Assembly: GCA_007693955.1 (NCBI GenBank) | Contig: RECR01000112.1 | Location: forward strand, 1 to 64,000 | DNA length: 64,000 nt | Source of the DNA: Gloeocapsa sp. DLM2.Bin57 | GTDB taxonomy: Bacteria > Cyanobacteriota > Cyanobacteriia > Cyanobacteriales > Gloeocapsaceae | Direction: 5' to 3' | Shown here: in pieces, positions 1-18,567 of the stretch | How positions within the stretch are numbered: position 1 is the first letter of the stretch | Layout of the letters: each line of letters begins with the position of its first letter | The notes under the pieces: model-generated | Seen by the model: the letters and a program-made list of their open reading frames with translations, nothing else | Told to the model about the DNA's origin: nothing | Databases searched by the model: none | Program-made: the position numbers and the translations under genes

Positions 1-75
1 TCTTCCTTGTCTCACCTTCGCCAGAATCTCATTGTCAAAAACCTACACCTGTGAGCTCTCCCCTTCTCCCTCTTC

Positions 76-720
76 TTAAGGAGCGAGTCTCTCTCTTATC
101 CACTCATCCTCTTTAAGTTGATAACGAAGGCGATCGTGTAAACGATTAGGGCGACCTTGCCAAAATTCGATTAGCATAGGTTTAAGCAGAAATCCCCCCC
201 AATGAGGAGGACGTGGGATATCTTGTTCTTGATATTTGATCTCAAGATTGGCTAATTCTTGTTCTAAAACTTCTCGATTAGGAATGACGCTACTTTGATT
301 AGATACCCAAGCGCCTAATTGAGAGCCTCGGGGACGACTAGAGAAATACTCGTCTGACTCTTCTGGTGTAGTTTGAGTTATTGTTCCTTCGATACGGACT
401 TGACGTTCTAATTCTGACCACCAAAATACTAAAGCTGCCTGGGGATTAGCCAGGAGTTGTTGGGCTTTGTCACTGTTATAATTAGTATAGAAGACGAAAC
501 CTCTGTGATCGAAGCCTTTGAGTAAAACCATTCTCGCTACTGGATAACCAGCTGAGTTAGTTGTAGCTAAAGTCATACTATTAGGTTCTAAGATTTCAGC
601 GGCGATCGCCTGAGATAACCACAAGTCAAATAACTCTATCGGGTTAAGGGGGGCTTCGGCTTCCATTAACCCTGCCCGAGTGTAGTTTTGTCGTAAATCA
701 GCTACAGATAACTTATTCAT
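76..720 (-). CDS. pdxH: Pyridoxamine 5'-phosphate oxidase
   Basis: FMN-dependent enzyme that oxidises pyridoxine/pyridoxamine 5'-phosphate to pyridoxal phosphate, the last step and salvage step of vitamin B6 synthesis. The 214-residue length is normal for the family. Recognisable blocks are RMVLLKG (63-69), FYTNYNSDKA (77-86), the FMN/substrate segment around SRPRGSQLGAWVS (128-140), and the C-terminal EFWQGRPNRLHDR (185-197) that holds PLP-contacting arginine and histidine. It is divergent from menF with a 107-bp gap that must hold both promoters. pdxA and dxs of the same pathway lie elsewhere in the window. Confidence 0.95.
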   Translation of the reverse strand: MNKLSVADLRQNYTRAGLMEAEAPLNPIELFDLWLSQAIAAEILEPNSMTLATTNSAGYPVARMVLLKGFDHRGFVFYTNYNSDKAQQLLANPQAALVFWWSELERQVRIEGTITQTTPEESDEYFSSRPRGSQLGAWVSNQSSVIPNREVLEQELANLEIKYQEQDIPRPPHWGGFLLKPMLIEFWQGRPNRLHDRLRYQLKEDEWIRERLAP

Positions 721-827
721 TTTCTGAGTATTTTTGTGCTAAAGTTAAGAAATTACTAATAAACTAAGATAAATTTAATAAATTTTAACATAAACTTTTA
801 CTCAAAGCCTAACAGGTATTTGCTTCA

Positions 828-2228
828 ATGACGCAATTTCGGATTTCTCAATCAATCAATAACTCCTCTCCTGGGTTTCAAGGAGAAGTTAAGGAATTAG
901 AAGGATTGCTCAGGGATATTCAACCTCAACATCATCCGAAAATAATCAGTTTTTCCCAAAGAATAGATAACCTTGATCCTCTCGATTTTTTAGCGACAAT
1001 CTCTCTAACCAAACAGTTATATTTTTATTGGGAAAATCCCCGTCAGTCAGAAGCTATCATCGCTTATGGGACGATTAGATGTTTAAAGTTAAATTCAGCA
1101 GATAGATTTAGGCGATCGCAACAATTTATTAACAACTGTTTAACCGAAATTCTCACAATTGGGGACTTACAACTTCCTGGTAGTGGTCCTCATTTTTTTT
1201 GCAGTTTTAGTTTTTTTGAGCAACAAAGAAAAGAGGCTCAATTTCCTAGTGCAACAATATTTTTACCAGAGATACAAATTTATTGCCAAAAAAATAGTAC
1301 GGTTTTAGTAATCAATACTTTAGCCAAAAACTTAAATAAGATAAACTTGATAATTAGTAAAATTAAAGCTAAAGTCAATACTAAAATAACGATTAATCAT
1401 GAGAAGAAAAACACTTATCTAACTATTCAAGATAAAGATAGAGAATTTAAACAATCAGTCAACTCAGCCTTAACATCAATTGAGCAGAAAAAGTTTAGTA
1501 AAATAGTATTAGCTCACGCTATAGACTTAACAGCATCTCAACCATTTAACCTGATAAAATCCTTACAAAACTTGCGTCAACAACATCCCGATTGTTACTT
1601 ATTTGCCACTAGTAATGGTGAAGATATTCATTTTATAGGAGCAAGTCCTGAAAGACTATTAACTATTAATAATAAACAACTAATCACTGATGCTTTAGCT
1701 GGTTCAGCCCCTAGAGGTAAAACAGTAGAAGAAGACAAACAAATTGGTGAATTACTATTAAATAACGAAAAAGAAAGAAGGGAACATGAAGCAGTAAGAG
1801 AATTTATTCAACAACGCTTGCGTCAATTAGGTTTAGAACCAAAAATTATGCCACTAGAACTACTACAATTAGCTAACATTCAACATTTGTGGACAGCTAT
1901 TTACGCAGAAATTCCCCCCAGACTTCACCCCTTAGACATTGTCGCACAACTGCACCCCACTCCAGCAGTAGCAGGAGTCCCCACAGAAACAGCTTGTCAA
2001 GAAATCAGACGCTATGAATCTTTTGAACGTTCCCTTTATGCAGCCCCCATAGGTTGGCTAGATTACCAAGGTAATAGTAAATTTATCGTGGGGATTCGTT
2101 CGGCTTTAATACAAGGTAATCAAGCTAGATTATACGGTGGAGCAGGGATAGTAGCGGGTTCAACCCCTGACAAAGAGTATGCGGAAGTACAACTTAAGTT
2201 ACAGTCTTTATTAAAGACTTTAGTTTAG
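828..2228 (+). CDS. menF: Isochorismate synthase
   Basis: Converts chorismate to isochorismate, the entry step of phylloquinone (vitamin K1) synthesis for photosystem I. The C-terminal half (about residues 210-460) is the chorismate-binding fold: GASPERLL, ITDALAGSAPRG, the EHEAVREFI helix, LHPTPAVAGVPTE and the terminal RLYGGAGIVAGSTPDKEYAE. The PTPAVAG segment and the EHE motif mark isochorismate synthases of the MenF/EntC type rather than anthranilate synthase. The N-terminal 200 residues are less conserved, as usual. Length (466 aa) fits cyanobacterial MenF. It appears monocistronic; a low-complexity tail follows the stop codon. Confidence 0.92.
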   Translation: MTQFRISQSINNSSPGFQGEVKELEGLLRDIQPQHHPKIISFSQRIDNLDPLDFLATISLTKQLYFYWENPRQSEAIIAYGTIRCLKLNSADRFRRSQQFINNCLTEILTIGDLQLPGSGPHFFCSFSFFEQQRKEAQFPSATIFLPEIQIYCQKNSTVLVINTLAKNLNKINLIISKIKAKVNTKITINHEKKNTYLTIQDKDREFKQSVNSALTSIEQKKFSKIVLAHAIDLTASQPFNLIKSLQNLRQQHPDCYLFATSNGEDIHFIGASPERLLTINNKQLITDALAGSAPRGKTVEEDKQIGELLLNNEKERREHEAVREFIQQRLRQLGLEPKIMPLELLQLANIQHLWTAIYAEIPPRLHPLDIVAQLHPTPAVAGVPTETACQEIRRYESFERSLYAAPIGWLDYQGNSKFIVGIRSALIQGNQARLYGGAGIVAGSTPDKEYAEVQLKLQSLLKTLV

Positions 2229-2244
2229 GATAAGTTAGGTATTA

Positions 2245-2271
2245 GGTGGAACGGTGGAACGGTTGAACGGT
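2245..2271. repeat. Short tandem repeat, GGTRGAAC family
   Basis: Three near-identical 9-bp units of the form GGTGGAAC(G) stand directly after menF. The same unit occurs in reverse orientation at 21192-21213, so this is a dispersed short tandemly repeated sequence and not a local accident. Such short repeats are common in cyanobacterial intergenic DNA and have no assigned function. Confidence 0.6.
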
Positions 2272-2354
2272 GCTATTATTCCTATATAATATGCTCAGAA
2301 GCTCCCACTCTCCCCCTCTCCCACTCTCTTCCCTCAAAGGATAACTTTTGAGTC

Positions 2355-3311
2355 CTAATTTAAGTCTCTATTACTATATAACCATTCCCATTCCTGAGTC
2401 AAACCATTAGTAAGGGAGACTTGAGGTTGATAATTAAGGATTTTTTGCGCTTTAGAAATATCAGCACTGGTATGACGCGCGTCACCCCTAGCGGGAGATA
2501 GATAATTACGGATCAGAGGTTGATTAATAATTTTTTCAATTTGATCGAGTACTTCTGTTAAAACTACCCTACTACCACCACCGATATTAAATACCTCTCC
2601 GACAGCATCTTTAACGTTAGCAGCAGCTAAATTAGCAGCTACGATATCACTAATAAAGGTAAAATCCCGGGTTTGTTGTCCATCTCCATAGACATCAATT
2701 GGTTGAGAATTTAACGCAGCTTTAAAGAACTTGTGAAAAGCCATATCAGGACGTTGACGCGGTCCATAAACGGTAAAATAGCGTAAAGCAGTAACAGGTA
2801 CACCAAAATTTTGCTGATATAACCAACACATTCTCTCTGCAGCTAGTTTAGTAATACCATAAGGTGAGACTGGTTGAGGACATACTGACTCAGGAGTAGG
2901 GAAAGTTTCCGCATTACCATAGACAGAGGATGTAGAAGCAAATACCAGACGTTGAAGAGACTTACTTTCTTTAGCAGCTTCTAGGATAATTTGAGTCGCG
3001 TTAATATTTCTGGTGGTATAGTCAGAGAAGCTTTTACCCCAACTCGCCCTTACTCCCGCTTGTGCAGCTTGATGATACAGATATTCGACTGAGTCTAATA
3101 ACTCCAACCAGTTCAAGTGTAGGATATCTCCCTCAATCAGCTTAAATGAATCATATTTAGTTAAATTACTAACATTTTGGCGTTTAAGTTTGGGGTTATA
3201 ATAATCATTAAAGCTATCAATGCCAATAACTCGTTCTCCTTGATTAAGTAGAGTTTCAGCTAAATTAGAGCCAATAAAACCCGCTACACCAGTTACTAAG
3301 TGAATCGCCAT
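2355..3311 (-). CDS. NAD-dependent sugar-nucleotide epimerase (UDP-glucuronate/UDP-glucose 4-epimerase family)
   Basis: Extended short-chain dehydrogenase/reductase. The Rossmann motif TGVAGFIG is at residues 7-14, the catalytic serine lies in ASTSSVYG (125-132) and the Tyr-Lys pair in YGITK (151-155). Sequence around DARHTSADISKA near the C-terminus is typical of UDP-glucuronate 4-epimerase-like enzymes. The 318-residue length is normal. It is the last gene of a minus-strand run, 39 bp after the hydrolase at 3351-4985, so it may supply an activated sugar for a polysaccharide or glycosylated product. The exact nucleotide-sugar substrate cannot be told from sequence alone. Confidence 0.85.
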   Translation of the reverse strand: MAIHLVTGVAGFIGSNLAETLLNQGERVIGIDSFNDYYNPKLKRQNVSNLTKYDSFKLIEGDILHLNWLELLDSVEYLYHQAAQAGVRASWGKSFSDYTTRNINATQIILEAAKESKSLQRLVFASTSSVYGNAETFPTPESVCPQPVSPYGITKLAAERMCWLYQQNFGVPVTALRYFTVYGPRQRPDMAFHKFFKAALNSQPIDVYGDGQQTRDFTFISDIVAANLAAANVKDAVGEVFNIGGGSRVVLTEVLDQIEKIINQPLIRNYLSPARGDARHTSADISKAQKILNYQPQVSLTNGLTQEWEWLYSNRDLN

Positions 3312-3350
3312 CTAAAATTTATTCCTAAAACTTCCATAATAACAGAAACG

Positions 3351-4985
3351 CTATATTTTTAATCGGTCAATAGTTTCTCTTACCTCATCAGCAGAAGCTT
3401 TAGTAATCAAACTAACTTTAAAGCTCTCATCTTGACTAAGATATTCAGCATAAGCTGACTGTAAATAGGGTCGATAATCCTGATTATTTAACAGATGAAC
3501 CTGAAAAAAAGCTAGAGAAATAGCATTGACATAACTACCAATCAGACTTTGACTTGGGAAACTCAAATGATTAGTCGCGTTAAGTGCTTCTTGAATTCCA
3601 CCATCGAGTTTAGTAAAATTAACGTGAGCTTGTCCTTCAATTAATCCCCAATATTTATCAGCACTACTTAACCAAGTAAAAGGTACAGCTTGTTCAAAAA
3701 TAGGAGGAGCAGCAGGATCTTTTGAACCAGATAAGAAGATAACGGGAATATCGATGTTACTAATACCAGTTTCTCCAAAAATATAGCGATTTACGGGATT
3801 ACCAACTAAAACAGCTTTAACACGATGATCACGAAACTGATAATTTTCTCGGGGTAATTCTAAAGCTTGACATTGTAGCAATAAAGCAACATCTACAGCG
3901 CCATAAAGACGATCACACCCTTGCTGAAGGTAATTAAAATCTATTGTAGCACCAGCTGTAGCTAAGGCAGTATAACCACCAAAAGAATGACCACCTACCC
4001 CTACACTTTCTACATCAAGTTTACCCTGAAATTGTTCTTGATTACGTTGAGTTAATTCATCGATAACAAAGCTAATATCTAAAGGACGATTGATAAACTC
4101 ATCTCTATCAAAGATATCTCTATGGTATCCCTGAAACATTTCTTCTAGATAAATTATATCACTACCAACATGTTGAGGAGCTGCTACTAAATAACCATAG
4201 GATGCTAAATGATTAAGTCCTTCTTCGTAATCTTCTGGACGTGATGATAAACCATGAGAAAAGATAACTACAGGAATTTTTGCGGTAGATACCTCTTGAG
4301 GGAGATAAACATCAACATAAAAACTACGGTTGCGATTGGTATCGGTTAAATTCCAAACTTGTTTTTCTACCTGATATTCACCTTCTTGACGAATATCTCT
4401 TAAACCAGCATAATCAACCACAGGGTTAGTCTCCGCTTCTGTTGATGTCCAAAGTTGCATTTGTTCTACTAATTCTTGTGTAGCTCTAGCAGCTCTTTCT
4501 GTTTCTTCAGCTAATCCCTGGATTAATAATCCTTGTAACTGAAGATTAGTAGGAAATTGTTTGAGGACATTTAATAATGTTAAACCCTCTGGTGCAAAGC
4601 TAGCTTGAACGATCGCTCCTCTTAAAGCGTATCCCCCATTGCTTCCTCCCTCAAGAGTAATCCCTTTTCCTAAACGCATTAGGATAGATTCTCCCATTTT
4701 AGTATTAAAAAAGCGGGAAACTAAAACAGGTTCTAGATCTATTTTTTTAGTTAGTGATTCTTGAAACTCTTGCTGTTGTTCAGGAGTAACTCGATTTAAA
4801 AAGAAGGCTAAATCTGGATTAATTGTCCCATTAACAGCAAAAGCTTCTAAAGATTCTACCTTCACAGAAAACATTAAAGGTGGATAAGATAGCAATATTT
4901 TTTCAGCAGCTTTAAGAGGAATTGAGGTTAGAATAACTAAACAAAAGCTTAATAAACCCAAAATAATCTTCTTGTTTTTTAACAT
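3351..4985 (-). CDS. Exported alpha/beta hydrolase with N-terminal DUF1400 domain
   Basis: Starts with a signal peptide (lysines, then a hydrophobic stretch to about residue 26). Residues 27-150 look like the cyanobacterial DUF1400 domain. The remainder is a dienelactone hydrolase/PAF-acetylhydrolase-like alpha/beta fold: oxyanion loop HGLSS (244-248), nucleophile in GHSFGG (Ser334), likely acid Asp423 in SGSKDPAAP and base His454 in GQAHVNF. A carboxyl-ester or lipid substrate outside the cytoplasm is likely, but unknown. It follows the sulfotransferase gene by only 5 bp and so is probably translated from the same mRNA. Confidence 0.8.
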   Translation of the reverse strand: MLKNKKIILGLLSFCLVILTSIPLKAAEKILLSYPPLMFSVKVESLEAFAVNGTINPDLAFFLNRVTPEQQQEFQESLTKKIDLEPVLVSRFFNTKMGESILMRLGKGITLEGGSNGGYALRGAIVQASFAPEGLTLLNVLKQFPTNLQLQGLLIQGLAEETERAARATQELVEQMQLWTSTEAETNPVVDYAGLRDIRQEGEYQVEKQVWNLTDTNRNRSFYVDVYLPQEVSTAKIPVVIFSHGLSSRPEDYEEGLNHLASYGYLVAAPQHVGSDIIYLEEMFQGYHRDIFDRDEFINRPLDISFVIDELTQRNQEQFQGKLDVESVGVGGHSFGGYTALATAGATIDFNYLQQGCDRLYGAVDVALLLQCQALELPRENYQFRDHRVKAVLVGNPVNRYIFGETGISNIDIPVIFLSGSKDPAAPPIFEQAVPFTWLSSADKYWGLIEGQAHVNFTKLDGGIQEALNATNHLSFPSQSLIGSYVNAISLAFFQVHLLNNQDYRPYLQSAYAEYLSQDESFKVSLITKASADEVRETIDRLKI

Positions 4986-4990
4986 TGCAT

Positions 4991-6130
4991 TTATTTAGTA
5001 AAATTATACTCAGTAAAAACATCTGGCATAAAATCATAAATCGTTTCTTGAGTTAAACCAAATTGTTCTAGAGAATATTTATGTTTACTTTTATATCCTT
5101 GTTGTGCTGCTTGAATTTGGGTTTTAAATTTAGTCAAAGTTTCAGTAGTTAAAGATAGGTCAAATTGACTATAAATCTGCTCAATAACCTCCAGAGTATT
5201 GGTAATTAAATCTTCGTATCTAACCTCTAAAAACCTTTCTGGCTGTTTTTGGCGCAATTTTTGGAAAATTTGCAGTCTTTGACGGTAATAATCAGCGTAT
5301 AGCTTTGCTAGAGCTTTACTACTATCAAAATTGTTGCGTGTTTGGGGAACAAAACTATTCCAGGAAGCATTATACATACTCAAGAGAGAGGGAATCGCTT
5401 GATAAGGATGACGAATAAGGTGAATAACCTTTAAATCTGGTATAGCGTCTAACATGGTTTGCAATCTTCCTGTACAAGTAGTATTTTTAATCAGTAGGGT
5501 TTTATCTCTACCTATTGCGTATAAATGTCTTTGCAAACAATCTAGATAATGAGACATTAATTTTTCGCGGGTTGAAATTGGTAATCTATCTACCCAACCA
5601 GACTCCTCAAGTTCATTAAAAAAGGGAAATAAGAGAGTAATGACTGGGGATAACATCGTAAAGACAAAGAATTGTTCGTCTTCTTCCGCTTCATTTAATT
5701 TAGTAGTGTGAATCGTTTCCCAACCACTAAAACCTTTTTTTTCTAAAGATGTCAGCATATTGGTAAATATCTTTAACTTTTCTAACCTATCCAAAAGCTG
5801 ATAGATGCTGATAGAGGGAAAAATAGTGTGATAGAGTTTAGTATAGGTAAACTGCTCATCCTCACAGAGTAAACGATGTAAAAAAGTTGTACCACTGCGA
5901 GGGTTACCAGTGATATAAATAGGAGCTATAATCGGTTGTTGACGATAAGAAGAATAGGGGATGCTCTCTAATTTACGCACTAGAGAGACAAAAGAATGTA
6001 ACCCTAAAAAAGCACTACTAAAAAGAGTAACGTAGGTAGCGTGGAGAGGGTGGAAATGTTGTCTAGAGAAACTGGTTTTAATCGCTTTCCAGAATAGTTG
6101 CTGGTTTAAATACATACTTGTTAAGCTCAA
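4991..6130 (-). CDS. PAPS-dependent sulfotransferase family protein
   Basis: The 5'-phosphosulfate-binding loop PRSGTTFLHRLL begins at residue 77, and the 3'-phosphate-binding segment VIHLIRHPYQAIPSLLSMY is near residue 235; both are diagnostic of the sulfotransferase fold. The family moves a sulfuryl group from PAPS to a hydroxyl or amine on a sugar, lipid or small molecule. The length (379 aa) suits the bacterial Sulfotransfer_3 type. It lies between the ATP-grasp gene (66 bp upstream) and the DUF1400 hydrolase (5 bp downstream), which suggests a common product. The APS kinase gene cysC, 7 kb away, makes PAPS. An alternative start is Met6. Confidence 0.82.
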   Translation of the reverse strand: MSLTSMYLNQQLFWKAIKTSFSRQHFHPLHATYVTLFSSAFLGLHSFVSLVRKLESIPYSSYRQQPIIAPIYITGNPRSGTTFLHRLLCEDEQFTYTKLYHTIFPSISIYQLLDRLEKLKIFTNMLTSLEKKGFSGWETIHTTKLNEAEEDEQFFVFTMLSPVITLLFPFFNELEESGWVDRLPISTREKLMSHYLDCLQRHLYAIGRDKTLLIKNTTCTGRLQTMLDAIPDLKVIHLIRHPYQAIPSLLSMYNASWNSFVPQTRNNFDSSKALAKLYADYYRQRLQIFQKLRQKQPERFLEVRYEDLITNTLEVIEQIYSQFDLSLTTETLTKFKTQIQAAQQGYKSKHKYSLEQFGLTQETIYDFMPDVFTEYNFTK

Positions 6131-6196
6131 AGAGATTTAATTAACTTTACCCTATCTCTAGCATATTTATGCTTTTCTGAACATCCACCCTGAATA

Positions 6197-7462
6197 TTAA
6201 TTGCTAACTATTCGTAAACCTTTTTGGGCTAATTTTTCCTCAACTAATAACATTTCTTTAGTATCTTCTCCAGCAACTATACCGTAGATATCTGTATAGA
6301 TTTTACCATACTTAACCTTTTCTAAAGCAGATAAGATCAAGAAATCTTTCTTGTCTAATTCTGGTTTTAAGGTAACTAGTATTTCATCTAAAGTACCATT
6401 CATCTGATAATCTCCTGAATATTTAGCTACATTTTTACCCGACTCAAGCAAGCGATGACGTTGTAAACATAAAGGAGTTGAACCATTGACGCGATAATTA
6501 ATATCAATCACGTGTAATCCTCCGTCTTTATCTTCTAAAACATCGCAACCAATCACCCCAAAATAACCTTTTTCATGAGCATAAGCAGATACTTTAGTAA
6601 TAATGGTTGTAAATTTACTCATATCTACTCCTTCATAGTGAATCAATCCTCCAAGGAATTTACCTTCACTAGTTACCATTTGACTAGTTGCACCAATCAA
6701 CGTAACTTGACCAGATTTAGAGACATAAAATTGCACACAATAGTTTTGGACTTCATTCTTAACAAAATCAGAGATAATAATATAGTCTAGTAACTGATTA
6801 TAATAATATTTTTTCATTTCTCGGATACAATAATCTAAATCACTGGCTGATTTAATAATATACGTTCCTTCTCCTGATAATCCATGTGATACCTTAACTA
6901 AATAGGGAAAATTATGAGTAATTTTTATCTCGTCTATTGGAGTTTCATTAACATCATAGATATCGTATTTAGGTGCTTGAACTCCTGTTTCAGCTAAACT
7001 AGTTTTGCTCAATAACTGATAATGAACATCAGGATCTACTGCGTGTTTTTTTGGTAAAAGAGAATCAAAAGGAAACAGAGTGATTAACTTATCATATTTG
7101 GGACTTTGGTTGAGATAATCTAAGTAAATTTTACGCTCTAAGGTTTCGATGTTATTATATTTATAACCAAATTGTTCTTGCCAATAGCTAACTAAGACGT
7201 TACGAGGAGATTTAAAAATAATGCCAGTAATATCATCTCCTAATACAGCCAAATTTTTCCAAGGTTCTTTTTGACAGAGTTTATCATAAGATGCTTTAGT
7301 AGCTTCCTCGCTTCCGTCTTGAATGAAATACTTTTTATAATTAGGATAAATAGCCCAACTAGCCGTAGAAGGATAATTAAGAATAAAACCATAGTTACCG
7401 TCGCTAATATCTTCAGCAAATAAGCTAGAGAAAGAACCTTCTTTAAAATAGGTAAATGACAT
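6197..7462 (-). CDS. ATP-grasp domain protein, substrate unknown
   Basis: A 421-residue protein with an N-terminal region of about 140 residues that I do not recognise, then an ATP-grasp fold: the nucleotide lid VSHGLSGEGT (191-200), GVIGCDV (302-308) and the metal-binding strand DINYRVNGS (320-328), which stands where most family members have an E-x-N-x-R-x-x-G motif. ATP-grasp enzymes join a carboxylate to an amine or thiol through an acyl-phosphate. It heads the run ATP-grasp, sulfotransferase, hydrolase, epimerase and lies downstream of two CphA2-type ATP-grasp genes. An amide-bonded small molecule or peptide product is possible, but this is inference. Confidence 0.75.
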   Translation of the reverse strand: MSFTYFKEGSFSSLFAEDISDGNYGFILNYPSTASWAIYPNYKKYFIQDGSEEATKASYDKLCQKEPWKNLAVLGDDITGIIFKSPRNVLVSYWQEQFGYKYNNIETLERKIYLDYLNQSPKYDKLITLFPFDSLLPKKHAVDPDVHYQLLSKTSLAETGVQAPKYDIYDVNETPIDEIKITHNFPYLVKVSHGLSGEGTYIIKSASDLDYCIREMKKYYYNQLLDYIIISDFVKNEVQNYCVQFYVSKSGQVTLIGATSQMVTSEGKFLGGLIHYEGVDMSKFTTIITKVSAYAHEKGYFGVIGCDVLEDKDGGLHVIDINYRVNGSTPLCLQRHRLLESGKNVAKYSGDYQMNGTLDEILVTLKPELDKKDFLILSALEKVKYGKIYTDIYGIVAGEDTKEMLLVEEKLAQKGLRIVSN

Positions 7463-7563
7463 TTATTTTTCCTCTGAATCTCAATAAGATGATTAATGGC
7501 TGCTATTTTACAGTTGAGAGATCTCAGCAAAAGTTCCTGATGAACATTAGGCTCTTTCGGCAT

Positions 7564-7960
7564 TATGCTATGGATTATTACTTATATACTGAATATTCTG
7601 ACTCGTGAATGCTACTTTATAATACGATTTTAGGTGCGGAATGGTGATAAGCTTTCACTTATCGTTTATAGACACGAGATGCAAAAGAGAAGAAAATGTA
7701 ACTTTAGATACAATTAACCCCATAATGCCGAGAGAGCCGATATATAGCACTACCTACGTGCAAAGCACTCATGCACTCACGCAAAAGTAGATTAGTACTG
7801 GGTTTCATAACTTTAAAATGTTCTAATCTTAACTTGTACTGCTGTAAAAGGTCAACTTCGACTGCTGTAGTATTAGCAGGAAAAGTAGCTGTAATAGGAT
7901 ATGGGCAAATTTAGAGACAATAATAATTCTTCATTCTTCATTCTTTTATTTACCTACTCC
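7564..7960. other. 397-bp intergenic region with a possible decayed reading frame
   Basis: The stretch between the ATP-grasp gene and the first cphA2-like gene has no complete convincing gene. On the minus strand 7910-7704 is open for 68 codons and has protein-like composition, but it lacks ATG, GTG or TTG until an internal Met codon at 7808; translated from there it gives 34 residues. A small hairpin, GATAAG/CTTATC, lies in 7640-7670 and may sit in the leader of the ATP-grasp gene. The part next to 7961 is low-complexity (ATTCTTC repeats). Confidence 0.4.
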
Positions 7961-9823
7961 CTATTCCCTATCCCGTAGCGCTATATCTAAAATACTTTGA
8001 TAACAAATATCTAAATATTGCTCAAGATTATCTAGTTGAAAAGTTTTTCTACCTTGTGGAGTGTGTTTAACAATATTATCACCAGTTTGGGTTAGTAAAA
8101 TACCATTAGGTAATAAAGATGATGCTAACATAGTTTCTTTACTAGTAGGTTCAACTAGAATAACTAAATCACTACCTTGATAAAATAACCCTTCATTTTC
8201 AAAAATTGTCTCTGGATATTCAGCGATTAATAAATCTAAGTGAGGATGACGTAACAAACTCTGAATATTAACATTATAGGGTTGTTGTTGGATGCGTTGG
8301 CGTTGGTTTAAATAAACACCTTCTTGACAAATACCGCCGATTAAATAATCAGGATAACTAGTTAAAATAGATTGAATCAGTTCAGCTAATTCTTGTTGAC
8401 TTAAACGATTAAAAGTAACAATAGGAATTCGCGAAGGTTTATCCTTAGGGAAAAAGAAATTAAAAATATGACGGGGAACATCAATACTGTTACCTTGTGC
8501 GGGTTTAAGGTGCATAAAAACCCCAGGAGAAGCGTTAATTTCAATTATCCCAAAATTGCCCTCTTTCCAGGATTTAGAGATATCCGTAGCAATGACATCA
8601 ATACCTAAACAAGCAAGACCAAGATATTGGGCGATATCTTCAGCTAATTGTCGATTATCGGGATGAATCTCACTAGTGCAATCGATACTAACTCCACCCG
8701 CGGAAATATTAGCGACTTTGCGTAAATAAACCGTTTGGTTAAGAGGAATTACTGTATCTAAAGATAAACCTTGTTCTTGTATATAACTTTCTAAGATCTC
8801 ATCAACTAAGATTTTAGTTAGAGGGGAAATAGGTGTATCTTTACGTATTTCTTTTTTGTTTTCTTCTGTAATTAATTCAGCCAAAGTTTGAGCCCCATTA
8901 CCTATTACATAGGGAGGACGGCGTTCCACCGCAGCGACAAATTGTTCACCAACACAAACCAGACGAAAATCTGAACCTGTTAAACTTTCTTCGATTACAA
9001 TAGGATTAGTGGTAGAGGTAGCTTGGGCTTTTTCAAAAGCATTAATTAAGCTATTTTTATCGTTAATTTGTGCAGTAACACCGATTCCTTCATGTCCCGC
9101 TACTGGTTTAATAGCTACTGGATAACCAATCTCTTCAATAACAGCTAAAGCGGATGCTAGGGTATAAACAATTTTACCTTTAGGTACAGGAAAACCGAGA
9201 TTAATCAGAAAATCTTTAGAATCGTCTTTTTGTGTGGTTAAATCTGAATCCAAAAGACTATCACAGTCAAAAATAGTAGATAATCCCCGAATTTGATATT
9301 TACCATAACCATATTGTATTAATCCTTCTTCCCAGACAAGAAAAGTAGGAATATCCATCTGGTAAGCTGTATTTAATAAAGAATAGATAGTCGGATTTCC
9401 ATAAATAGAATTACCAAATTTTTGTTGTAAAATCTGTAATTGTTGCTCAAAATCAAAATCTTTACCCAGAGTAATATTCTCTAACCATTGATAAACTGTT
9501 TCTACGATCGCGCGACTAGTAGCATAATGCAGAGATTGTAAAGCTATACGTTCAAAATCAGGATAATTATGTTTACTCACACGGTTTAAATACAAGTCCA
9601 TATCTAATTGGCTAAAGTAATAAAGCGTCTCGGTGAGTAATTCTCCATAACCGTTAAGTTTTAACTTTTGTAAAGCTGGTAAATATTGACTCATCTTATC
9701 TTGATAAGTTTCCACACTCAGAGGTTTAGCTTGATGAGATAGGCTAAAGTCAAAAACTAATGCTCCCGTATTAAGATAGGGATTAGGACCGAGATAATAT
9801 TTAAAATTAGTTATGGTAAACAC
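7961..9823 (-). CDS. cphA2: CphA2-type cyanophycin synthetase, copy 1
   Basis: 620 residues resembling the first two-thirds of cyanophycin synthetase. N-terminal domain with GPNPYLNTG (12-20); ATP-grasp domain about 200-460 with GHEGIGVTA (243-251), GSDFRLVCVG (283-292), LRKVANISAGGVSID (367-381), IHPDN (386-390) and the metal-binding IIEINASPG (426-434). Where CphA1 has the Mur-ligase P-loop (GTNGKT), near residue 471, this protein reads TFNRLSQQEL, so the second ATP site is gone and the Mur-like domain is shortened. That matches CphA2, which polymerises beta-Asp-Arg dipeptides with a single ATP site. It starts with GTG at 9823. Strongly similar to the next copy upstream. No cphB (cyanophycinase) is in the window. 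Confidence 0.78.
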   Translation of the reverse strand: MFTITNFKYYLGPNPYLNTGALVFDFSLSHQAKPLSVETYQDKMSQYLPALQKLKLNGYGELLTETLYYFSQLDMDLYLNRVSKHNYPDFERIALQSLHYATSRAIVETVYQWLENITLGKDFDFEQQLQILQQKFGNSIYGNPTIYSLLNTAYQMDIPTFLVWEEGLIQYGYGKYQIRGLSTIFDCDSLLDSDLTTQKDDSKDFLINLGFPVPKGKIVYTLASALAVIEEIGYPVAIKPVAGHEGIGVTAQINDKNSLINAFEKAQATSTTNPIVIEESLTGSDFRLVCVGEQFVAAVERRPPYVIGNGAQTLAELITEENKKEIRKDTPISPLTKILVDEILESYIQEQGLSLDTVIPLNQTVYLRKVANISAGGVSIDCTSEIHPDNRQLAEDIAQYLGLACLGIDVIATDISKSWKEGNFGIIEINASPGVFMHLKPAQGNSIDVPRHIFNFFFPKDKPSRIPIVTFNRLSQQELAELIQSILTSYPDYLIGGICQEGVYLNQRQRIQQQPYNVNIQSLLRHPHLDLLIAEYPETIFENEGLFYQGSDLVILVEPTSKETMLASSLLPNGILLTQTGDNIVKHTPQGRKTFQLDNLEQYLDICYQSILDIALRDRE

Positions 9824-9828
9824 TGTTT

Positions 9829-9833
9829 AGGAG
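9829..9833 (+). promoter_or_regulatory. Ribosome binding site AGGAG for the small plus-strand ORF
   Basis: A perfect AGGAG lies 7 nt upstream of the GTG at 9841. Most genes in this window have poor Shine-Dalgarno sequences, so this is the main reason for accepting the 62-codon ORF as translated. Confidence 0.5.
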
Positions 9834-9840
9834 AATAACT

Positions 9841-10029
9841 GTGATCAATGAAGATAACCTCTCTGGTACTAGTTTTCCGCTTCAGTCTGAAGATGAATTA
9901 GCTAGACTAATGCAAATCAAAGAAACTAAAGCGAAAAAACTAATAGCGAACAGAGAGTGTACCCAATGTACCTATTTATATACCCTCAAAGGGCAAAAAG
10001 TTCGACGTACAGCCCTAATCATAGAGTAG
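9841..10029 (+). CDS. Small protein of unknown function between the two cphA2-like genes
   Basis: A 62-codon GTG-started ORF that fills the 207-bp gap between two tandem cphA2-like genes but is read on the opposite strand. The product is charged in its first half (acidic start, then KETKAKKL), carries one Cys-x-x-Cys pair (CTQC near residue 41) and ends in a basic-hydrophobic tail. It has no signal peptide or membrane segment and I recognise no family. Its start is 17 bp from the divergent start of copy 1, and its stop abuts the stop of copy 2. It could be a regulator, an accessory peptide or a substrate; it could also be chance, although the AGGAG site argues for translation. Confidence 0.5.
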   Translation: MINEDNLSGTSFPLQSEDELARLMQIKETKAKKLIANRECTQCTYLYTLKGQKVRRTALIIE

Positions 10030-10030
10030 T

Positions 10031-11911
10031 TCAACACGTCAGTAAACGGGTAATTTCTTTGAGATAGACGTAACTAAAGGATTCCGATTCAGCTAGAGTA
10101 TAACTCTCCATCATTCCTTGAACCTTAACAGAAATAGAGTCACCTTGTTTAATAATCAGGGTTTTATTGGGGAGTAAATCTCTGGCTAAAATCATCTCTG
10201 TTTCTGTAGGCTCATCTAAAACGATTAAATCGCTTCCTTCATAAACCATACCATCTTCAGAGAAAACCCGTTCTGGATATTCAGCGATTAAAAGATCTAA
10301 TTTGGGATGACGTAGTAAACTTTTGATATTACTATTGTAATCTTTGTTAATCACTTTTTCAGAACGATTGAGAAACATCGCGTCTTGACAAACCGAACCA
10401 ATCAACCAATCAGGATGACGTAAGAGAATATGATCGACGATTTCGTAGATTTCCTCTCGGTAAAGTTTATTAAAGGTAATAATGGGAACGCGACAGGGTT
10501 GAGTGGAAGGAAATAGATAGTCAAGAATATAGCCTGGAACATCTACACTCTCACCTACAGCAGGATTTAGGTGCATAAAGATACCTGGTGCGGCGTTAAT
10601 CTCAATGATCCCAAAATTCCCCTCTTTCCAAGAACGAGAAATATCTTCAGCGATGACATCAACACCCATACAAACCAGACGGAAGTATTGAGCGATATCT
10701 TGAGCTAGAATCATATTATCTGGGTGAATATTGCTAGTAGAATCAATACTCACACCACCAGAAGAGAGATTAGCTACTTTACGTAAATAAACAACTTCTC
10801 CTGATTCAAGAATGGTATCTAGGTATAAACCCTGTTCCTCTAGGTATTTATCCATGACCTCATCGGTGATAATTTTACCTAAAGCTGAAGTAGGAGTGTC
10901 TTGACGCGCTTCGGTAGCGTTCTCTTTCTCGATTAATTCTTCAATTGTCGATTTACCGTCACCTGTAACAAAAGCGGGACGACGTTCTACCGCTGCTGCG
11001 AATTTCCCTCCTACACAGAGAAGACGAAAATCAGAACCAGTGATACTCTGTTCAACGATAATAGAAGATGATCCTTCTTCGGTAGCTTCTTTAGCTTTAC
11101 CAAAAGCGAATTCTAAACCGCGATCGTCTCTAACGTTAGCGGTAACCCCAATCCCTTTATGTCCGACTACTGGTTTAACCGCTACAGGGTAACCGATTTC
11201 TTTAACCGCGTCAAAAGCTTCGTCTAGGGTATAGACAATTTCTCCCTTGGGTACAGGAAAACCACAGGTAGCTAAAAAAGCTTTACAGTCGTCTTTCTGG
11301 GTGGTAAAGTCTGAGTCTAGTTGACTATCACAGTTAAAGGTTGTCGCTACCCCTCTGATTTGATATTTACCATAACCGTATTGAATTAAACGTTCATCAG
11401 GTAGGTAAAAGGTGGGTATCTGACGATGATAAGCTGTCTGTAGAATAGAGTAAAGGGTTGGACCACCATAAGTGGAGTCGCGAAATAATTCTTGGAGATA
11501 GGTTAATTCACGGTGAAAGTCGAAGTTTTTATCTCTGGTAATTGCTTCGAGACAATCCCAGACTAAATTAATTACTCCTCTGGTGGTTTCGTGGTGTATC
11601 GATTGAATAGCGATGGTAAATTTATCGGTTTCGGGTTTAATGCTGAACCTTTCAACATATAATCCCATTTCTAATTGACTAACTTCTGACATAGTTGCTG
11701 CCAACATTTCGGCGTGGGTTTTAACCTTTAATCCTCGTAATTGAGGTAAATAATCACCCATTTCTTGCAAATATTCTTTAACCTTTAAGGGTTTAGCATC
11801 TTGGCCAAAGGTAAAATCAAATACTACAGCACGTGTATTGAGATAAGGGTTTGGACCTTCGTATTCTTTAATGTTAAAAATATCAAAGGTTTCGGCTCGT
11901 TTTTTACTCAC
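10031..11911 (-). CDS. cphA2: CphA2-type cyanophycin synthetase, copy 2
   Basis: 626 residues with the same architecture as copy 1: N-terminal GPNPYLNTR block, ATP-grasp domain with GHKGIGVTA, GSDFRLLCVG, GDGKSTIEELI, LRKVANLSSGGVSID, IHPDN and IIEINAAPG, then a shortened Mur-ligase-like remnant in which the P-loop is replaced by ITFNKLYREEI. The remnant still shows the CphA1-like segments LLRHPKLDLLIAEYPE and GSDLIVLDEPTE. The protein therefore has one ATP site, as in CphA2. Two full-length, divergent copies in tandem are unusual and suggest different acceptors, a hetero-oligomer, or duplication with drift. Copy 2 is upstream of copy 1 in the reading direction. Confidence 0.78.
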   Translation of the reverse strand: MSKKRAETFDIFNIKEYEGPNPYLNTRAVVFDFTFGQDAKPLKVKEYLQEMGDYLPQLRGLKVKTHAEMLAATMSEVSQLEMGLYVERFSIKPETDKFTIAIQSIHHETTRGVINLVWDCLEAITRDKNFDFHRELTYLQELFRDSTYGGPTLYSILQTAYHRQIPTFYLPDERLIQYGYGKYQIRGVATTFNCDSQLDSDFTTQKDDCKAFLATCGFPVPKGEIVYTLDEAFDAVKEIGYPVAVKPVVGHKGIGVTANVRDDRGLEFAFGKAKEATEEGSSSIIVEQSITGSDFRLLCVGGKFAAAVERRPAFVTGDGKSTIEELIEKENATEARQDTPTSALGKIITDEVMDKYLEEQGLYLDTILESGEVVYLRKVANLSSGGVSIDSTSNIHPDNMILAQDIAQYFRLVCMGVDVIAEDISRSWKEGNFGIIEINAAPGIFMHLNPAVGESVDVPGYILDYLFPSTQPCRVPIITFNKLYREEIYEIVDHILLRHPDWLIGSVCQDAMFLNRSEKVINKDYNSNIKSLLRHPKLDLLIAEYPERVFSEDGMVYEGSDLIVLDEPTETEMILARDLLPNKTLIIKQGDSISVKVQGMMESYTLAESESFSYVYLKEITRLLTC

Positions 11912-12087
11912 AACTTTATTACTTTCTTGACTACTAATTTACTCTGAATTTTATTCTTACTCGATTATTGTATCTGAGTGAGAATCTTTATAAAAAATAA
12001 ATTTTTGCCTAAATTGTAAATTTCGATACATTTTTTTGGAGGAAAAAAGCATCTAATTATTGAGAATTATAGCTATAAATAGTTAGT

Positions 12088-13476
12088 ATGAATAAGTTTA
12101 AATTACCAGATACACTTGTAATTGCTTCTGCCATTTTATTAATAACAATTGTACTAACTTGGATAGTTCCTGGTGGGGAATTTGCTAAAGAAGTAGTAGA
12201 TGGTCGGGAAGTGATAGTACCAGGTACGTTCCAAACTATAGAGCCGGCCCCCCAAAGTATTCTCACCTTTTTTACTGCCCCTTATCTGGGTTTTAAAGAA
12301 GCAGTAGGAGTAATAGCTTTTATTTTCTTCATTGGTGGTGCTTTTGGGATGATTAACGCCACTGGTGCAATTAACGCAGGATTATTAAAGTTAGTAGGTT
12401 TTACTTTGAGTAATCCACTATATAAATGGGTGGTTATTCCATTATTAATTCTCGCTTTTGCTTTAGCAGGTGGTACTTTTGGCATGAGTGAGGAAGTATT
12501 GGTATTTGTTCTGATTACTATACCTTTGGCTATCTCCTTGGGATACGATCGCCTAGTGGGTGTAGCTATTCCTTTAGTTGGTGCTGGTGCAGGTTTTGCC
12601 GGAGCATTTTTAAACCCTTTTACCGTGGGTGTAGCTCAAGGAATCGCGGGAATACCTTTATTTAGTGGTATGGCTTATCGTATCTTTGCTTGGGTGGTTT
12701 TTTCTTTGTTGACCATCGCCTACATCATGTTTTATATTTCTAGATTAGAAAAAGATAAAACCATTAGTCCGATTTATTCAGAAGACGATACCCTAGATAT
12801 TGACACAACTCAACCTAGAGAACTACCTTTAACTAGCAACCGCATCATTATCCTGTTGTTATTTGCTCTGGCTATAGTAGTATTAGCTTGGGGAGTAACC
12901 CAAAGAGATTGGTATATCACCGAAATCTCAGGTTTATTTTTTGGTTTGGGGATCTTTTCAGCTTTAATTGGGGGATTATCTATGTCAACCATGGTTAAAG
13001 CTTTTAGCGATGGGGCTAAAGAAATGATGGGTGCTTGTTTAGTGGTGGCTTTCTGTAGAGGTATTTTGGTGATAGCCGAAGACGCTAATATTATTGATAC
13101 CATCCTCAACTCTATGTCCAATGTACTTTCTGATATGCCTCCTGTGATCTCAGCACAAGCAATGTTTATCCTGCAATCCTTCTTGAATTTCTTTGTACCC
13201 TCTGGTTCAGGTCAAGCTGCTTTAACTATGCCCATTATGGCGCCTTTAGGAGACTTGTTGGGAGTTTCTCGTCAAACCGCGGTGTTAGCTTTCCAGTTTG
13301 GTGATGGTCTTAGTAATATGGTTCTTCCTACTAGTGGGGTAACCATGGGTGTACTTTCCATTGCACGGATTCCCTATGACGTTTGGCTACGTTGGATGAT
13401 TCCTTTGATGATTATTTACTTTATCGCTGCAATGCTTTTATTAGCAGGTCCTACAGTTTTCTTTGAATGGAATTAA
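12088..13476 (+). CDS. YfcC/DcuC-family integral membrane carrier (C4-dicarboxylate or basic amino acid type)
   Basis: A 462-residue protein with about 12 hydrophobic segments, of the YfcC/ArcD-like branch of the C4-dicarboxylate anaerobic carrier family. Typical features are the N-terminal TWIVPGGEF segment, the glycine-rich AGGTFGMSEE loop near residue 130 and the FVPSGSGQAALTMPIMAPLGD motif near residue 370. Members move dicarboxylates, arginine/ornithine or small peptides. It is divergent from the cphA2 pair with a 176-bp gap, so transport of aspartate, arginine or the Asp-Arg dipeptide is an attractive but unproven idea. A GGAGG at about 12040 is too far upstream to serve this ATG. Confidence 0.8.
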   Translation: MNKFKLPDTLVIASAILLITIVLTWIVPGGEFAKEVVDGREVIVPGTFQTIEPAPQSILTFFTAPYLGFKEAVGVIAFIFFIGGAFGMINATGAINAGLLKLVGFTLSNPLYKWVVIPLLILAFALAGGTFGMSEEVLVFVLITIPLAISLGYDRLVGVAIPLVGAGAGFAGAFLNPFTVGVAQGIAGIPLFSGMAYRIFAWVVFSLLTIAYIMFYISRLEKDKTISPIYSEDDTLDIDTTQPRELPLTSNRIIILLLFALAIVVLAWGVTQRDWYITEISGLFFGLGIFSALIGGLSMSTMVKAFSDGAKEMMGACLVVAFCRGILVIAEDANIIDTILNSMSNVLSDMPPVISAQAMFILQSFLNFFVPSGSGQAALTMPIMAPLGDLLGVSRQTAVLAFQFGDGLSNMVLPTSGVTMGVLSIARIPYDVWLRWMIPLMIIYFIAAMLLLAGPTVFFEWN

Positions 13477-13544
13477 GCAAAAGTGTCCAGAAACGTTTAT
13501 GATGTTTTAAGATTTTTGTTAACTTTTTTTACAGTAATCAACAA

Positions 13545-14096
13545 ATGAAACAACGCGGTGTAACAGTTTGGTTTACAGGTCTCAGTGGCGCAGGCAAAAC
13601 TACTATAACCACAGCAGTGGCTCAGTTTTTAAGAGAACAGGGATATCCTCTAGAGGTTCTCGATGGTGATATCGTCAGGGAAAATCTCACTAAAGGTTTA
13701 GGATTTAGTAAAGCAGATCGCGATGAGAATATACGCCGTATTGGATTTGTAGCTAATTTGTTAACTCGTCATGGTGTAATTGTCCTAGTTTCGGCTATCT
13801 CTCCCTATCGTGAGATTCGCGAAGAAGTACGCGGAAAAATAGGTGATTTCGTCGAAGTCTTTGTCAATGCACCTTTAGCTGTGTGTGAAGGAAGAGACGT
13901 TAAAGGTCTGTATAAACGTGCTAGAGCAGGAGAAATTAAATCTTTTACAGGAATCGATGACCCCTATGAACCTCCTGTTAATCCTGAAGTAGAATGTCGT
14001 ACCGATTTAGAAGAACTTTCAGAAAGTATCAATAAAGTTTTAGCAAAATTACAAGAGTTAGGTTATATTGCTGAACATAGTCCCGTTTCTGTATAA
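13545..14096 (+). CDS. cysC: Adenylyl-sulfate (APS) kinase
   Basis: Phosphorylates APS to PAPS, the sulfuryl donor for sulfotransferases and for sulfate reduction. The P-loop GLSGAGKTT is at residues 12-20; [10 protein letters not shown] and the [22 protein letters not shown] segment are family hallmarks. Length 183 aa is complete for the stand-alone kinase. It lies 68 bp after the carrier gene and 39 bp before the DUF92 gene. Given the sulfotransferase in the same region, it may supply that enzyme as well as general assimilation. Confidence 0.95.
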
Positions 14097-14135
14097 TTTT
14101 CAACAGTAACTAAGGTTCTGCCACAGAGGTAAATT

Positions 14136-14879
14136 ATGCTATCAGAGTTAGGGTTATCCAATCCCTGGTTAATAGGAACAGCAATTAATACCCTGCTATT
14201 AGCGATCGCTTTGATTGCTCCAAAAAAATTACTAACTCTTGGTGGTTTAGCTAACGCTTGGTTACTAGGCGTAATTATCTGGGGTACTCTGGGTTTACCA
14301 GGTTACCTCGTGGTTATGTTCTATTTTTTAGTGGGATCTGCAGTCACTAAAGTTGGTCTAGCCCAAAAAGAAGCAGAGGGAATCGCTGAAAAGCGCTCAG
14401 GTGCAAGAGGTCCAGAAAATGTCTGGGGTTCGGCTTTAATTGCTGCTCTTTGTGCTTTAGCGATCATCTGGTTACCAGACTACCAACCCTTATTATTATT
14501 AGGTTATGTCGCTAGTTTTAGTACTAAATTATCTGATACTACTGCTAGTGAAATTGGTAAAGCCTATGGTAAAACCACCTTTTTAATTACTACCCTTAAA
14601 CCCGTTCCTCGGGGAACTGAAGGAGCAGTTAGTCTAGAAGGTACTCTCGCAGGAATCCTAGGCTCAGTGGCGATCGCTCTAGTAGCTTGGGGAGTAGGTT
14701 TAATCAACCTTAGAGAAATTATTTATTGTGTTATCGCTGCATTTATAGCAACTACTATAGAAAGTTTAATCGGTGCTACCTTACAATCTAGATTAACTTG
14801 GCTAAGTAATGAATTAGTCAATGTGATTAATACTTTTTTAGGAGCGGCGATCGCTATTGGTTTAGGTTTAAGTTTTTAG
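14136..14879 (+). CDS. DUF92/TIGR00297 membrane protein (phytyl-phosphate kinase-like)
   Basis: A 247-residue polytopic protein of the DUF92 family, recognisable by VWGSALIAALCAL, the SFSTKLSDTTASEIGKAYGK segment and PVPRGTEGAVSLEGT. The plant member VTE6 phosphorylates phytyl phosphate to phytyl diphosphate in tocopherol and phylloquinone salvage, so the same reaction is plausible for this thylakoid-bearing organism. The stop codon is immediately followed by the ATG of the next gene, so the two are probably translationally coupled. Confidence 0.8.
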   Translation: MLSELGLSNPWLIGTAINTLLLAIALIAPKKLLTLGGLANAWLLGVIIWGTLGLPGYLVVMFYFLVGSAVTKVGLAQKEAEGIAEKRSGARGPENVWGSALIAALCALAIIWLPDYQPLLLLGYVASFSTKLSDTTASEIGKAYGKTTFLITTLKPVPRGTEGAVSLEGTLAGILGSVAIALVAWGVGLINLREIIYCVIAAFIATTIESLIGATLQSRLTWLSNELVNVINTFLGAAIAIGLGLSF

Positions 14880-15314
14880 ATGTCTAACATAGTACAATTA
14901 AGAGCTGCTAAAATTCCTCTAGTTGGCAATATAGCTGTACATTATTGGCTCGTCATCTGGCAAAATCAAAGTGTAGAACGTTGGGAAGTATGGCAAAGAG
15001 CTAATTGTTGTCAATATAGTTGGGGTCATTTGCATAAAAATTTACTGCAATATTCCCAAGGAGTAGGAAATGGTGACAGTTGGCTAGAAGCCCAATGGTT
15101 AGATAGTGAAGCTGATTTATTAATAAATACTATCAAAAATAGTCCTGAAATTTATCCCTATAAGTATAAGTATAGATATTGGCCCGGTCCTAATAGTAAT
15201 ACTTACGTTCAATGGGTTTTAAATGAAGCTAAAACCAACCATTACTTAAGTTATTTAGGTCTTGGTAAAAATTATCAACCAGGTAAAATCTTTAATTTTT
15301 TGAGCACAAATTAG
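14880..15314 (+). CDS. Conserved-looking small protein, possibly DUF3750-like
   Basis: 144 residues starting at the base after the stop of the DUF92 gene, with no gap. The centre and C-terminus (YRYWPGPNSNTYVQWVL, then a YLGLGKNY segment) recall DUF3750 proteins, but the match is by eye and the protein is shorter than the proteobacterial members. Rich in Trp, Tyr and Asn, with no signal peptide and no clear membrane helix. The function is unknown; tight coupling to the DUF92 gene suggests co-expression. Confidence 0.6.
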   Translation: MSNIVQLRAAKIPLVGNIAVHYWLVIWQNQSVERWEVWQRANCCQYSWGHLHKNLLQYSQGVGNGDSWLEAQWLDSEADLLINTIKNSPEIYPYKYKYRYWPGPNSNTYVQWVLNEAKTNHYLSYLGLGKNYQPGKIFNFLSTN

Positions 15315-15366
15315 GCTCTCCTGACACAGGGGTGTAAACTGTACATTAAGTTACAAAAAAGATAAA

Positions 15367-15432
15367 GTGGGTTACGGCGCTCCCTGGAAAACTTTACTAG
15401 AATTCACAAATTATGACCCGCGCCTAACCCAC
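15367..15432. repeat. Interspersed palindromic repeat (GTGGGTTA...TAACCCAC)
   Basis: Left arm GTGGGTTACGGCGC (15367-15380) pairs with right arm GCGCCTAACCCAC (15420-15432), with one bulged base and a loop of about 39 bp. Repeats with these GTGGGTTAGGCGC-type ends are widespread in cyanobacterial intergenic DNA and resemble small non-autonomous mobile elements. No second copy was noticed in this window. Confidence 0.55.
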
Positions 15433-15554
15433 CCTACGATATCTAAAATTTACTTATCACCACAGGTGCACCGAGAGGCTAAAAAGAGCTAAAATAACCT
15501 GAGTTCGGGAGCAAAAATCGGGACAAAAAAAGGAGAGATAAACTGAGGTTATTT

Positions 15555-15573
15555 AGGTTAAGGAAAAGTTAAG
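15555..15573. promoter_or_regulatory. Candidate Pho box upstream of pstS
   Basis: Two 8-bp direct repeats, AGGTTAAG and AAGTTAAG, are separated by 3 bp (11-bp period). On the opposite strand they read CTTAACTT and CTTAACCT, close to the cyanobacterial Pho-box unit CTTAACCT. They lie about 37 bp upstream of the -35 of the pstS promoter, which suits a response-regulator (SphR/PhoB) site. Confidence 0.55.
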
Positions 15574-15609
15574 AAACCCAGGTTATTTTCAAGGGATTTA
15601 TTAAGTCAG

Positions 15610-15637
15610 TTGACTTATGATTTTTTTACAGTAAAAT
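15610..15637 (+). promoter_or_regulatory. Candidate pstS promoter
   Basis: TTGACT at 15610-15615 and TAAAAT at 15632-15637 are separated by 16 bp. Start of transcription would fall near 15645, leaving a leader of about 45 nt before the ATG. Confidence 0.4.
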
Positions 15638-15687
15638 AACAAAGACAAGATAATATATAGTCAAATTTTGTAAGGATTATCATATCA

Positions 15688-16854: not shown

Positions 16855-17210
16855 GATTTCTCTCTGGTGAGTTCAATAGTAATTGAGCCACCAAAATCAG
16901 GAATAGGAGGAGCTAATTTACACAACTGTACACGTACTTTGCTAACTCCTGTGAGTTTGAGTATTTCTGTAGCAATAACCGAGGCTAATTTTTCTACTAA
17001 AGCAAATTTAGTCTGGGTTATTTGCTGTTTAACTAGATCAATAGCTTGACGATAATCGAGAGTGTCTTCTAGGCGATCGCTAGTTCCCGCGGGAGTTAAA
17101 TCTAACCAGAGAGTCAAATGAACGCTAAACCATTGACCTAATACCTGTTCCTCAGGAAGAAACCCAGTATAACCGTAGGCGCGAATTTCGTTGATAATAA
17201 TTTTATCCAT
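16851..17210 (-). CDS. folB: Dihydroneopterin aldolase
   Basis: Cleaves dihydroneopterin to 6-hydroxymethyl-dihydropterin in folate synthesis. The 119-residue length and the FolB pattern are present: an N-terminal NEIRAYGYTGFLPEEQ, LEDTLDYRQA in the middle, VEKLASVIATEIL, and a C-terminal segment with KLAPPIPDFGGSITIEL. It is 3 bp after dnaA on the same strand, so it is probably at the end of the egtC-egtB-dnaA-folB transcript, and it overlaps the 3' end of pstS by 4 bp. Confidence 0.92.
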   Translation of the reverse strand: MDKIIINEIRAYGYTGFLPEEQVLGQWFSVHLTLWLDLTPAGTSDRLEDTLDYRQAIDLVKQQITQTKFALVEKLASVIATEILKLTGVSKVRVQLCKLAPPIPDFGGSITIELTREKS

Positions 17211-17213
17211 GAT

Positions 17214-18551: not shown

Positions 18552-18567
18552 AATAATACAATCCCTC

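Follow-up and report, generated by a model that had tools for sequence, protein, structure and literature searches.

A candidate beta-aspartyl-dipeptide ligase that accompanies CphA2 in cyanobacteria, encoded beside a tandem cphA2 pair in Gloeocapsa

Cyanophycin synthetase 2 (CphA2) is described as an enzyme that re-polymerises the beta-Asp-Arg obtained from degraded cyanophycin, and the purpose of this activity is not obvious. The staphylococcal enzyme LdmS (L-aspartate-L-methionine ligase, SAOUHSC_02373) is an ATP-grasp protein that joins aspartate and methionine as an alpha-dipeptide. The polymerisation of beta-Asp-Arg into cyanophycin by CphA2 has been documented (PMC10206079, PMC9427784), and isoaspartyl peptidases (IaaA) are known to split beta-aspartyl dipeptides, of which they accept many (PMC10206079).

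Here we describe a locus that brings CphA2 and a relative of LdmS together. It lies in a 64,000-nucleotide stretch of the Gloeocapsa sp. DLM2.Bin57 genome (contig RECR01000112.1, positions 1 to 64,000), the whole of which we call the window. The best explanation of the region is a small cyanophycin unit, made up of two cphA2 copies (a and b) and an LdmS-like ligase, that is followed by unrelated genes (Table 1). The ligase probably makes or recycles the building blocks of CphA2. This reading is based on its occurrence in CphA2-bearing genomes only, and on its frequent pairing with an enzyme of a dipeptide-splitting family.

Table 1. Features of the locus, with the evidence for each assignment
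Feature	Position	Strand	Evidence or remark
CphA2 copy a (cyanophycin synthetase 2, beta-Asp-Arg polymerase)	10031..11911	-	phmmer, motifs
CphA2 copy b, divergent tandem paralogue	7961..9823	-	identity to copy a, tree, motifs
Gap between CphA2-b and ligase, 498 bp	7463..7960	-	without recognisable gene or remnant
LdmS-like ATP-grasp protein, candidate beta-aspartyl-dipeptide ligase	6197..7462	-	NCBIfam LdmS 2.6e-25, below cut-off
Sulfotransfer_3 sulfotransferase, probable bystander	4991..6130	-	Pfam 2.9e-28
DUF1400 exported alpha/beta hydrolase, probable bystander	3351..4985	-	Pfam 1e-39
NAD-dependent sugar epimerase, probable bystander	2355..3311	-	Pfam Epimerase 2e-56
YfcC-type (YfcC/DcuC) carrier, putative basic amino acid antiporter	12088..13476	+	NCBIfam NF008611 8.7e-119, below cut-off
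cysC	13545-14096		directly after the YfcC carrier

The cphA2 pair and the ligase gene

The minus-strand genes are transcribed in the order CphA2-a, CphA2-b, ATP-grasp ligase, sulfotransferase, DUF1400 hydrolase and epimerase, with intergenic gaps of 207, 498, 66, 5 and 39 bp, and a further 176 bp separates the divergent YfcC carrier from CphA2-a. The original prediction for this DNA gave the gene positions, strand order and families correctly, including the carrier beside CphA2-a and the downstream cysC, and it rightly counted three ATP-grasp enzymes, two of which are CphA2. The source genome, of 3.45 Mb, carries CphA1 and CphB together on one other contig, as well as a nifH and one housekeeping IaaA.

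Both large ATP-grasp proteins are assigned to CphA2 because, like the enzymes of solved structure (7ta5, 8fxh), they lack the C-terminal part of CphA1, a Mur-ligase domain; they are 620 and 626 residues long, and in the tree both group on the side of CphA2. In full-length phmmer comparisons with the PDB, copy a matches 7ta5 at 1.1e-242 and 8fxh at 1.6e-239. What sets the window apart from these described enzymes is that it holds two copies in tandem, one of them divergent. The copies are 55% identical, and the pair branches outside the CphA2s from the sampled relatives. Among the genomes examined the tandem arrangement is unique to this one, and every other CphA2-bearing genome has a single copy. 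Copy a retains an intact glycine-rich loop and EIN motif. Copy b keeps the histidine and the EIN motif, with its loop changed from GHKGIG to GHEGIG, and it has a long branch (1.18) and an unusual composition. At 252 otherwise conserved columns, 62 are changed in copy b vs 31 in copy a. The fast evolution of copy b and the charge reversal in its glycine-rich loop mean that it is possibly degraded or altered, and from its sequence it may be either specialised or decaying.

The small ATP-grasp protein is the less familiar member of the unit. Its nearest curated family is LdmS, an NCBIfam equivalog, to which it is not assigned because its score of 89 bits falls short of the cut-off (475). A profile built from 17 of its homologues and compared with the PDB nevertheless places LdmS (7r8p) far ahead of all other entries, and an AlphaFold2 model (mean pLDDT 81.5) is closest in fold to the closed form of LdmS (7r8q, TM 0.70-0.72), with ATP-grasp peptide ligases next. 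The motifs NYCVQF, FGV.GFD and D.NFR.NGST are common to the ligase and LdmS, and the D.N.R.NGS ATP-grasp motif aligns between them; overall identity, in contrast, is only about 21%. Also unlike LdmS, the cyanobacterial proteins form a tight family (58-66% identical to the window protein, with a mean column identity of 79% that includes the D.N.R.NGS motif) tied to CphA2 and to the isoaspartyl-peptidase paralogue described below. The natural reading is that of a dipeptide ligase using aspartate. Since LdmS makes Asp-Met, a beta linkage and arginine are both guesses for the ligase, which we infer from its companions IaaA2 and CphA2. The family is about 100 or more cyanobacterial proteins strong. 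In a literature search that mostly lay outside the subscription journals, we found no paper linking it to cyanophycin.

The 498-bp gap upstream of the ligase was considered as the remnant of a lost IaaA2 or of another gene. This was dropped, as the only matches that blastx and blastn gave in the whole set of fetched loci were to itself. An NtcA-like palindrome, GTAAATTTCGATAC, occurs at 12016-12029 in the gap between CphA2-a and the YfcC gene; it was set aside as proof of nitrogen control, because the motif count for the window (21 vs 15.5 +/- 3.9) is within chance. Promoter and terminator scans gave a signal at or below shuffle level, and no RNA families were found in positions 1-20000.

Neighbouring genes in related genomes

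Do the genes of this run belong to one pathway? The original prediction took the whole co-directional run as a possible tailoring pathway without a named match, which would combine amide ligation with sulfation and export-side processing. The short gaps (66, 5 and 39 bp) in its last four genes, as well as the nearby cysC, speak for such a sulfated and exported amide product. The gaps are real, but they are weak evidence. Close homologues of the sulfotransferase occur in two of 59 relatives, and there it has other neighbours. In a congener (G001, 72% identical, genome 99% complete) it begins 4 bp after a gene that we named pyrR by eye, and in the other relative (G028, 49%) it comes after a ureD-like gene, also named by eye. 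Moreover, the first of these genomes has neither CphA2 nor the ligase. The proposed sulfation and export-side processing of an amide product finds no support.

The other genes are scattered likewise. Near about 100 fetched ligase and CphA2 loci there are no homologues of the DUF1400 hydrolase or of YfcC, and the epimerase is represented only by paralogues of 27-33% identity. The YfcC carrier was considered as a partner of CphA2 and rejected. It was found in just one of the 59 relatives, a second congener (G002), in the order YfcC-cysC-membrane protein-DUF3750-pstS-folB as in the window (the contig ends within YfcC), and in none of the CphA2-bearing relatives. Judged by this gene order, the carrier is part of a conserved block on the cysC side.

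A comparison of synteny across cyanobacteria, which had been proposed as a check, thus shows that the genes do not travel together. The single-pathway claim fails on this scattering, which the original prediction had itself named as refuting evidence; a single operon is rejected on the same grounds, and we regard a common sulfated product as barely credible. The sulfotransferase, DUF1400 hydrolase and epimerase are probable bystanders. What survives is the link between amide ligases, as the small ATP-grasp protein is tied to CphA2 across cyanobacteria; the other genes are not part of it, and the link runs via cyanophycin storage.

Co-occurrence of the ligase with CphA2 and IaaA2

The coupling between the ligase and CphA2 is well supported. 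Of 385 other cyanobacterial genomes, drawn evenly from across the phylum, 44 have CphA2; the ligase is present in 14, and every one of these is among the 44 (Fisher p = 8e-15). A separate sequence scan, with genomes picked across many genera, added 50 further ligase-bearing genomes, a few of which possibly duplicate genomes of the earlier draws, and CphA2 is present in 50/50. Among the 59 relatives, CphA2 is found in 20 and an intact ligase in nine, with a ligase fragment in one more. In G077, a CphA2-positive genome, the ligase (L104 4325-5542) is broken by stop codons and is likely a pseudogene.

Nitrogen fixation or genome size could be thought the sole cause of this pattern, but the association survives both stratifications. 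In the nifH-positive stratum 9/9 ligase genomes have CphA2 against a background of 30/58 (p = 0.0013), and in the nifH-negative stratum 5/5 against 14/327 (p = 6.6e-8). For relatives with genomes of at least 5 Mb, the ligase occurs in 9/18 with CphA2 and 0/14 without (p = 0.0017). These p-values do not correct for shared ancestry, but the carriers are spread over several families in at least two orders.

These distributions bear on the possibility that the ligase makes a free dipeptide, serving as a solute, signal or nitrogen shuttle, and that its link with CphA2 is ecological, arising from a shared lifestyle. Many carriers are indeed large-genome strains of Nostoc, Microcoleus, Scytonema and Leptolyngbya. 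The gene, besides, is mostly unlinked from cphA2 and is sometimes plasmid-borne; it lies near cphA2 only in the window and in two Nostoc genomes, in which cphB and a divergent cphA2 lie within a few kb of it (4.5 kb and 6.3 kb, respectively, in one of them). However, a shared lifestyle sits poorly with the presence of CphA2 in 64/64 ligase-bearing genomes of the phylum draw and the further set, when CphA2 is found in only about 11% of genomes, and with an association that persists within the nif strata and among large genomes. We therefore consider a free dipeptide distinctly unlikely. In one Nostoc genome (Nostoc sp. T09, L222 3365-5276), CphA2 is apparently split by a frameshift and the nearby ligase is intact.

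The second companion of the ligase is a paralogue of isoaspartyl peptidase, here called IaaA2. It adjoins the ligase in 41/80 loci, always in the same direction, at distances that range from an overlap of a few bases up to about 600 bp. Eight of the nine relatives whose ligase is intact have IaaA2, and it is missing from all relatives outside this group. It is also found in seven genomes of the phylum set, all seven with the ligase, in some of which the two genes are unlinked. Neither the relatives nor the phylum set yielded an IaaA2 without a ligase, and IaaA2 is absent from the window's own genome.

An alignment of 42 sequences shows that IaaA2 conserves the autocatalytic threonine of Ntn hydrolases and GRVGD, whose arginine and aspartate we take to be the aspartate-binding residues, and it is accordingly classed with the isoaspartyl aminopeptidases. 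With these and the TSTGG motif it resembles IaaA (isoaspartyl aminopeptidase/plant-type asparaginase). It differs in sharing only some 33% identity with the housekeeping form, as against 64-74% within the IaaA2s of the relatives, and in its confinement to ligase-bearing genomes. IaaA enzymes are promiscuous, and an asparaginase role could also be imagined. The pair also lies, adjacent and in one direction, on a large plasmid, pP742401, in Gloeothece citriformis PCC 7424 (L219 11986-14479), where both genes appear intact and are annotated as a 'hypothetical protein' (the ligase, WP_012599657.1) and an 'isoaspartyl peptidase/L-asparaginase family protein'. A plasmid of Gloeothece verrucosa (L220 10001-11468) carries a short ligase remnant next to an ISL3 transposase. 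In 7/80 loci a methyltransferase-like gene lies 3' of the ligase, e.g. L164 8365-9129.

The nature of this partner, an isoaspartyl peptidase, and of the nearest curated family, LdmS, also speaks against identifying the protein with the mycosporine-like amino acid (MAA) ligases reported from desiccation-tolerant cyanobacteria. Inspection of the listed neighbourhoods by eye showed no recognisable MAA core gene. New types of ATP-grasp ligase have been reported for complex MAAs in such cyanobacteria (Zhang 2021, as cited in PMC12157317), and Nostoc flagelliforme is among the ligase carriers. On balance an MAA ligase appears very improbable.

Proposed role of the ligase

With a confidence only a little better than even, we propose that the protein is an ATP-dependent beta-aspartyl-dipeptide ligase, probably joining aspartate and arginine into beta-Asp-Arg that feeds CphA2, and that IaaA2 hydrolyses the same dipeptide. 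ATP would activate a carboxylate of aspartate for coupling with the amino group of another amino acid, arginine being the most probable one (Asp + Arg + ATP -> beta-Asp-Arg + ADP + Pi). CphA2 would add the product to the polymer, a route to beta-Asp-Arg that would bypass the CphA1 polymer and cyanophycinase. In the many relatives that have it, IaaA2 would, going by its family, return beta-Asp-Arg to Asp + Arg. The substrate, the beta rather than alpha linkage and the direction of flow are all inferred here from the company that the ligase keeps.

The ligase and IaaA2 would thus form a pair for synthesis and breakdown, analogous to CphA/CphB. As with CphA1 and CphB, a synthetic enzyme would stand beside a degradative one for a single product; the difference is that the ligase and IaaA2 would act on the dipeptide, not on the polymer.

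An alternative is that the ligase joins aspartate to an amino acid other than arginine. The resulting beta-aspartyl dipeptide would be co-polymerised by CphA2, or would modify or terminate the polymer, and the outcome would be a variant cyanophycin. The co-occurrence with CphA2 and the pairing with IaaA2 fit this equally well, given that IaaA enzymes take many beta-aspartyl dipeptides (PMC10206079). Furthermore, the ligase-bearing relatives all have CphA1 too, so that a source of beta-Asp-Arg is already present in them. On the other hand, in two pairs of sister genomes (L023/L024, L031/L032) only one member has the ligase, and within each pair the CphA2s are nearly identical (branch lengths 0.03-0.06) and give no sign of a changed substrate. 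We judge a variant polymer unlikely, if still worth considering. The same sisters illustrate that the ligase has often been gained or lost, always on a CphA2 background.

Returning to the proposed synthesis of beta-Asp-Arg, the finding that the ligase occurs only with CphA2 offers a testable role for the latter, in that the dipeptide may be directly synthesised in some cyanobacteria. It is possible, though we hold it at somewhat less than an even chance, that the ligase, CphA2 and the dipeptide hydrolase together are a small, plasmid-capable module, providing a second route to cyanophycin or a variant of it that is independent of CphA1. Direct synthesis of the dipeptide would also give biotechnology a simple way to cyanophycin, or to variants of it, with just two enzymes. 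The proposed reading points, moreover, to a function for these ligases, whose Gloeothece member is still annotated as hypothetical.
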